Position numbers and translations under genes: made by a program. Below the pieces are notes generated by a model. It did not search any database, was not told where the DNA came from, and saw only the letters and a list, made by a program, of their open reading frames with translations. Shown here piece after piece: positions 32,823 through 32,964 of a stretch of DNA of 64,000 nucleotides. Numbering within the stretch: the first letter of the stretch is position 1; every line of letters starts with the position of its first letter. The DNA is from Desulfotomaculum nigrificans DSM 574 (GTDB taxonomy: Bacteria > Bacillota > Desulfotomaculia > Desulfotomaculales > Desulfotomaculaceae): the NCBI RefSeq assembly GCF_000189755.2, contig NZ_KI912183.1, forward strand, positions 808,257 to 872,256, given 5' to 3'.

Positions 32823-32881
32823 GGCCACCAGAAACCGAGCACGGTCTCCGGCAGCCCCAACGCCACACTTACATCAATGTA
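32823..32881 (-). promoter_or_regulatory. nifH leader attenuator module 2 (ANTAR-type architecture)
   Basis: Minus strand. A TAC-ATTGAT-GTA hairpin (32870-32881; hexaloop with A1 and G4) is followed by GGC-GTTGGG-GCT (32853-32864). The second hairpin overlaps the 5' arm of a 15-pair terminator stem (32823-32856, loop TGCT) followed by CTTTTCTTTT. The second hairpin and the terminator exclude each other. The first stem has only three firm pairs. Confidence 0.6.
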
Positions 32882-32908
32882 TATATAGGGAGGTTTTTCC
32901 AAAAAAAT

Positions 32909-32964
32909 AAGGCACTGGTTGTTCACCAGCACCTTCGCCTTTTGACTTGATACTTCAATGTATC
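32909..32964 (-). promoter_or_regulatory. nifH leader attenuator module 1 (ANTAR-type architecture)
   Basis: Minus strand. GATAC-ATTGAA-GTATC hairpin (32949-32964; hexaloop A1, G4), then GGC-GAAGGT-GCT (32928-32939) overlapping the 5' arm of an 11-pair terminator stem (AAGGTGCTGGT / ACCAGTGCCTT, 32909-32935) followed by ATTTTTTT. Termination here would stop transcription before nifH unless an RNA-binding antiterminator stabilises the upstream hairpins. Confidence 0.65.

Follow-up and report, generated by a model that had tools for sequence, protein, structure and literature searches.

The closest described relatives of the leader studied here are the RNA targets of EutV (E. faecalis eut), NasR (Klebsiella nasF) and AmiR (Pseudomonas amiE), which share a dual hairpin, P1 and P2, of at least 3 bp each and, like the nifH leader, have hexaloops with G at position 4 (G4), a terminator overlapping P2 and termination as the default outcome. 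In the parts of Ramesh et al. 2012 (PMC3369931) drawn on here, the ANTAR target is defined as a tandem pair of hairpins whose hexaloops carry A1 and G4, and mutation of loop position 1 weakened EutV binding; in the EutV–RNA structure, G4 is contacted and A1 makes no contact (PMC8934654). The same parts of PMC3369931 contain predictions of ANTAR targets before nitrogen genes, nitrogenase subunits included, in Desulfotomaculum relatives, with 13 attenuators in six units of Desulfotomaculum acetoxidans, as well as targets at glutamate synthase of D. reducens and at nitrogenase of Pelobacter carbinolicus. As far as they are described there, these regulons resemble the one presented below in gene classes and bacterial group, and in D. 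acetoxidans the attenuators outnumber the units, so that several must share a leader, as they do at nifH here. The kind of element is already known, and going by those parts of PMC3369931 the ANTAR prediction for Desulfotomaculum relatives has already been made; within them, the main text does not name the source species, D. nigrificans, and nifH of D. reducens may be contained in the supplementary tables. New are the tandem anatomy of the nifH leader and its conservation, the tolerance of A or G at loop position 1, and the finding that ANTAR proteins linked to glutamine synthetase (GS) mostly lack the phosphoacceptor Asp. A literature search for an experimental test of ANTAR control on nif returned none.

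NitR-type ANTAR genes in clostridia are linked to GS, with the ANTAR response regulator adjoining glnA. To our knowledge, the switching of nitrogen fixation in Firmicutes without NifA is poorly worked out.

In this study, we analysed a 64,000-nt stretch of the D. nigrificans genome (the window) together with the remainder of the genome and its relatives. We propose that the nifH leader consists of two serial transcription attenuators under ANTAR-type antitermination, a reading to which we assign a probability of about 0.88. The ANTAR interpretation put forward in an earlier note on this DNA is supported as essentially right.

Architecture of the nifH leader

nifH is the first gene of a nif run and is followed by two P-II (nifI-type) genes, each matching PF00543; the nifD/K/E/N/B-like labels in this run were read off the ORF list by eye. 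The following features make up the locus:

31963..32781, minus strand: nifH (nitrogenase iron protein), PF00142, E = 2.4e-133
32788..32795, minus strand: nifH Shine-Dalgarno sequence AAGGAGGA (from the sequence)
32811..32858, minus strand: terminator 2 with TTTCTTTT tail, 17-bp stem 32858..32821
32853..32864, minus strand: module 2 P2 hairpin GGC-GTTGGG-GCT, 3 bp, hexaloop with G1 and G4 (from the sequence)
32870..32881, minus strand: module 2 P1 hairpin TAC-ATTGAT-GTA, 3 bp, hexaloop with A1 and G4 (from the sequence)
32900..32935, minus strand: terminator 1 with ATTTTTTT tail, 11-bp stem 32935..32909
32928..32939, minus strand: module 1 P2 hairpin GGC-GAAGGT-GCT, 3 bp including one G–U pair, hexaloop with G1 and G4
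32949..32964, minus strand: module 1 P1 hairpin GATAC-ATTGAA-GTATC, 5 bp, hexaloop with A1 and G4 (from the sequence)
32982..33010, minus strand: sigma-A promoter TTGAAA-17-TATAAT with TG preceding the −10 box, 11/12 consensus matches

The predicted RNA start lies near 32975 (minus strand), about 10 nt 5′ of module 1. Between the sigma-A promoter and nifH, both tandem hexaloop modules claimed in the earlier note were recovered, by sequence and by the rule scan described below, with linkers between P1 and P2 of 9 nt in module 1 and 5 nt in module 2. The claimed overlap of terminator and second hairpin was likewise confirmed for stems of 11 and 17 bp with tails: in both modules the 5′ arm of the terminator includes the 3′ half of P2, so that P2 and terminator are mutually exclusive. 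The span originally given, 32823..32964, holds the modules; terminator 2 extends 2 bases beyond it, and neither the promoter nor the second U tract falls within it.

Compared with the 2012 definition, stems of 5 + 3 bp (module 1) and 3 + 3 bp (module 2) are present, all four loops carry G4, both P1 loops begin with A (ATTGAA, ATTGAT; A or G in relatives), an intrinsic terminator lies over P2 in both modules and an ANTAR protein is encoded in the same genome. The P2 loops (GAAGGT, GTTGGG), however, begin with G, which together with the series of two full modules distinguishes this leader from the EutV, NasR and AmiR targets. Given the weakened EutV binding upon position-1 mutation, G1 counts against the ANTAR reading. 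Since the P2 loops carry G1 here, yet A in homologous modules elsewhere, we treat the nifH modules as a variant ANTAR target.

Folding and specificity

The nifH leader folds much more stably than shuffled sequences (z = −6.8). As the free fold of both modules consists of P1 and terminator, the leader should terminate unless P2 is held; for module 1, a fold with forced P2 lies 16.6 kcal/mol above the terminator fold, and for module 2 the gap is 11.6 kcal/mol. One forced fold preferred an alternative P1 register in module 2 (ACATT-GATGTA-AGTGT), which we rejected because relatives keep TAC-NNTGNN-GTA.

For scanning, a module was defined as two R..G.. hexaloops on stems of at least 3 bp, 2–24 nt apart, with a GC-rich second stem overlapped by a terminator. 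This rule detected two modules in the window, both in the nifH leader, compared with a mean of 0.17 in shuffled windows, and among 3000 shuffled nifH leaders two contained one module and none contained two; because the rule was devised after the module was seen, these counts express specificity and not an unbiased probability.

A structured leader with terminators is shared by riboswitches, T-boxes and leader-peptide attenuators, and one of these mechanisms might act here instead. The search against Rfam gave no match at gathering score, and the matches of a permissive search in the nifH leader lay far below threshold; the leader contains no credible peptide with its own ribosome-binding site, and paired hexaloops fit ANTAR targets specifically. 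We consider such a mechanism extremely unlikely. No Rfam family was matched by the ANTAR module proposed here.

The stretch separating terminator 1 from module 2 contains a CCTCC motif (about 32889..32895, minus strand) that can base-pair in the predicted fold with the Shine-Dalgarno sequence of nifH and is kept in seven of nine family leaders. This pairing may represent a possible translational layer or else reflect shared ancestry.

Conservation among nifH leaders

In the eight genus or family members other than the source with a nifH match, module 1 is detected by the rule in every leader and module 2 in most; in the remaining ones module 2 is recognisable with a P1 of 2–3 bp. The short first stem of module 2, noted earlier as a weak point, is real (3 bp) and characteristic of the genus, in which it measures 2–4 bp throughout. 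Leaders of nifH from more distant families carry one to three modules.

All 27 modules taken from other genomes have G at loop position 4, for P1 and P2 alike, and A or G at position 1. The second weak point, P2 loops starting with G, is thus correct for this leader, and either purine is found across homologous modules. P2 in relatives follows GGC-RNNGNN-GCC in module 1 and GGC-RTTGAG-GCC in module 2; since homologous modules of other families carry A1 (GGC-AAGGAC-GCC, GGC-ATTGAG-GCC), A and G exchange at the first base of the P2 loop. The ANTAR loop rule can be widened in this way to A or G at position 1 with a strict G4, which would aid in finding further targets.

The compensatory changes anticipated for related leaders were observed in P1, with the variants GATAC/GTATC, GGTAC/GTGCC, GGTGC/GTACC and TTTAC/GTAAA. 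With both module classes included, the P1 covariation score reached 0.280, whereas shuffles gave 0.110 (0/500) and slid partners no more than 0.103. Module-1 sequences alone gave a weaker signal of 0.150 versus 0.110 (1/500), so that the covariation case needs both classes; P2 barely varies and is consequently little informative by itself.

A second collection of 80 nifH leaders yielded rule matches in nine and none in the antisense control. Matches to a covariance model that includes the genus nifH leaders (R1) concentrate directly 5′ of nifH, in Desulforamulus putei, Peptococcaceae BRH_c8a, a Desulfoscipio bin and other uncultured Bacillota. A promoter with 17-bp spacing is located 13–19 nt 5′ of P1 in most to nearly all relatives checked.

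The same module at other nitrogen genes

A second covariance model (R2) was built from nifH leaders of other families only, using module-1-type sequences only. Searched over the 3.05-Mb genome, R2 ranked nifH module 1 of the source first (E 3e-5); the next matches were the leader preceding an ANTAR gene (E 1.6e-4), that of a chemotaxis-receptor-like gene (4.8e-4) and that of glnA (0.25), all E-values of both models being rough owing to shortened calibration. This ranking, with the ANTAR gene and glnA among the next matches, supports the ANTAR assignment of the earlier note. The scan with R1 agrees and adds nifH module 2. In bits, module 1 (32964..32928) scores 37.5 with R1 and 32.9 with R2, and module 2 (32883..32853) scores 23.0 with R1; because both models were trained on nifH leaders, these nifH matches partly reflect shared descent. 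The independent evidence is provided by the predicted modules at the ANTAR gene, glnA, amtB and asnB.

A plain pattern search of the genome returned 25 sites, compared with 13 for a reversed control pattern. Intergenic sites with a terminator overlapping P2 comprise both nifH modules and those before the ANTAR gene, two glnA genes, amtB-glnK and an amidase regulator; the remaining sites fall within reading frames or have no good overlapping terminator. The leaders of asnB and the chemotaxis-receptor-like gene were found via covariance matches in locus L034. Gene names in this regulon derive from NCBIfam and Pfam, that of the chemotaxis-receptor-like gene being weak. The amtB leader apparently contains two modules in series as well, so that the tandem plan is not peculiar to nifH.

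These results also bear on another explanation of the leader hairpins, namely that they are plain intrinsic terminators insulating nifH from upstream transcription, with incidental hexaloops. Both do score as good terminators and the upstream gene (33291..36173) runs in the same direction, yet this gene already ends in a terminator of its own, situated at about 33236..33180 (scored with a weaker stem), and the two leader terminators are situated 3′ of nifH's own conserved promoter. Insulation furthermore gives no reason for P1–P2 pairs with invariant G4 and compensatory changes to persist, nor for the module to be found again ahead of glnA, the ANTAR gene and amtB. We therefore regard it as very unlikely and retain ANTAR-controlled attenuation as the preferred reading.

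The module in the chemotaxis-receptor-like leader (L034:5214-5250, minus strand) is among the best matches of the genome; its P2 loop begins with T, and the gene adjoins asnB.

ANTAR proteins

The genome scores above the PF03861 cut-off at three places and has two intact genes. The ANTAR protein that the earlier note proposed to look for elsewhere in the genome is thus represented by response regulators, one of them amid glutamine synthetase genes: ANTAR2 (L034:11364-11942; about 2831363-2831944 of G000:C1, the source genome) lies between a glutamate-synthase-domain gene and glnA. A lone ANTAR gene is present in locus L035.

ANTAR2 aligns with EutV over the full length (E 3.4e-33) and also, whole-length, with the putative antiterminator 1s8n. 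Of the RNA contacts of EutV (PMC8934654) it keeps Met172, Asn173 and Arg175, and Tyr164 is replaced by another aromatic residue, Phe. At EutV Arg168 and Arg177 it carries Gln and Ser, differences that we count against the ANTAR reading.

ANTAR proteins occur in 56 of 60 relatives, a distribution too uniform for a co-occurrence test with the nifH module. In 28 of 29 loci of relatives, at most 1.5 kb separates the best ANTAR gene from a glutamine synthetase gene. The phosphoacceptor position of 33 ANTAR proteins is occupied by E (22), D (6), H (2, the residue of ANTAR2), Q (2) and G (1). Since most GS-linked ANTARs in the order are without the phosphoacceptor Asp, a kinase is not an obvious input for them; speculatively, glutamine synthetase or P-II might act on them as a partner protein, rather than a kinase.

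One relative (G022, locus L031) shows module-like hairpins and terminators at nifH, yet its genome gives no ANTAR match. This counts against the ANTAR reading of the nifH modules and possibly reflects an assembly gap or another binder.

Within the GS cluster, the ANTAR gene that comes first, ANTAR1 (L034:7462-8018), lacks one base relative to D. putei, which breaks the frame. The sequence A AAA AAG was considered as a site of programmed frameshifting and rejected, since D. putei has one extra G just 3′ of it and an open frame; the break is for the same reason attributed to a one-base deletion or a sequencing error. Proteins of the ANTAR1 type carry His, Asp and Ser in place of the EutV RNA-contact residues Tyr164, Asn173 and Arg175; ANTAR1 is a degenerate ANTAR paralogue, perhaps with another role.

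Proposed model

We propose a model in which RNA polymerase would initiate from the sigma-A promoter, about 10 nt ahead of module 1. Under nitrogen sufficiency, presumably signalled by ammonia, P2 would lose to the terminator and transcription would stop at terminator 1, or at terminator 2 if the first is passed. When nitrogen is limiting, an ANTAR response regulator acting as a dimer, in all likelihood the product of the GS-cluster gene at about 2831363-2831944 of G000:C1, would grip the G4 hexaloops of the emerging P1 and P2 and keep P2 folded, so that the terminators are prevented and the nif genes transcribed. Serial modules would multiply repression and two modules should control more tightly than one. 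This provides a concrete RNA-level model in which a sigma-A promoter is combined with two or three terminators in series and a single ANTAR protein tied to GS.

A wider scheme, which we put forward tentatively and consider doubtful as a whole, would unite the nitrogenase and ammonium-assimilation genes of Desulfotomaculum-type bacteria in one RNA-level regulon without NifA. It would be run by a non-phosphorylatable ANTAR protein (E, H or Q for Asp) that receives the nitrogen signal directly from the co-encoded glutamine synthetase or P-II, and attenuators on the ANTAR gene, glnA and amtB would render it a self-amplifying switch.

Possible control of transcription initiation

The earlier note had set antitermination against control by NifA and sigma-54. 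This part stood: no −24/−12 element (TGGCACNNNNNTTGCW, at most two mismatches) was found between 28963 and 35501, the span around nifH, and no protein of the genome reaches the NifA cut-off of 528.85, the best match (404 bits) covering the AAA and C-terminal part only. Sigma-54 activators are represented by 17 strong matches in the genome, and an exact −24/−12 promoter at 36551..36566 (plus strand) precedes the divergent amiS and aliphatic amidase genes (36615..38268, plus strand). Initiation control as such is, however, not absent from the picture, given the following genus-conserved element:

33025..33037, minus strand: GTGTACTGTATTC, about 14–16 nt 5′ of the nifH −35 box

GTGTACTGTATTC is part of an imperfect inverted repeat and constitutes a candidate site for a DNA-binding regulator, through which nifH initiation may be controlled. 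The modules could then be ANTAR targets that merely fine-tune, with nitrogen control of nifH exerted mainly at initiation via the GTGTACTGTATTC regulator, as the genus-wide position of the element would suggest. GTGTACTGTATTC is missing outside the genus, where the modules are still present, and its other near-matches are located within a repeated element, none of them before nitrogen genes; we consider a mainly initiation-controlled nifH unlikely, and attenuation by the ANTAR modules remains the favoured account. We also discarded the idea of GTGTACTGTATTC serving as an operator of the whole regulon, as its genome near-matches fall in copies of one unrelated repeated element. A repeated element with GTATACTGTATTC occurs in near-identical, partly masked copies at seven places (G000:C1 740, 172120, 176219, 176438, 357267, 1624237 and 3052418).

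The gene upstream of nifH (33291..36173, minus strand) encodes a 960-aa protein in which a UrtA-like periplasmic-binding domain is fused to a sigma-54 activator. Its leader carries a further module:

36249..36281, minus strand: ANTAR-type module, P1 GTAC-AAAGTT-GTAC and P2 GGC-AAGGGC-GCT (pattern match), followed by an overlapping terminator ending near 36211

With 12.4 bits in R1 this module is not significant alone and was called on its anatomy of P1, P2 and overlapping terminator. Through it, a sigma-54 switch may stand under the control of an RNA switch.
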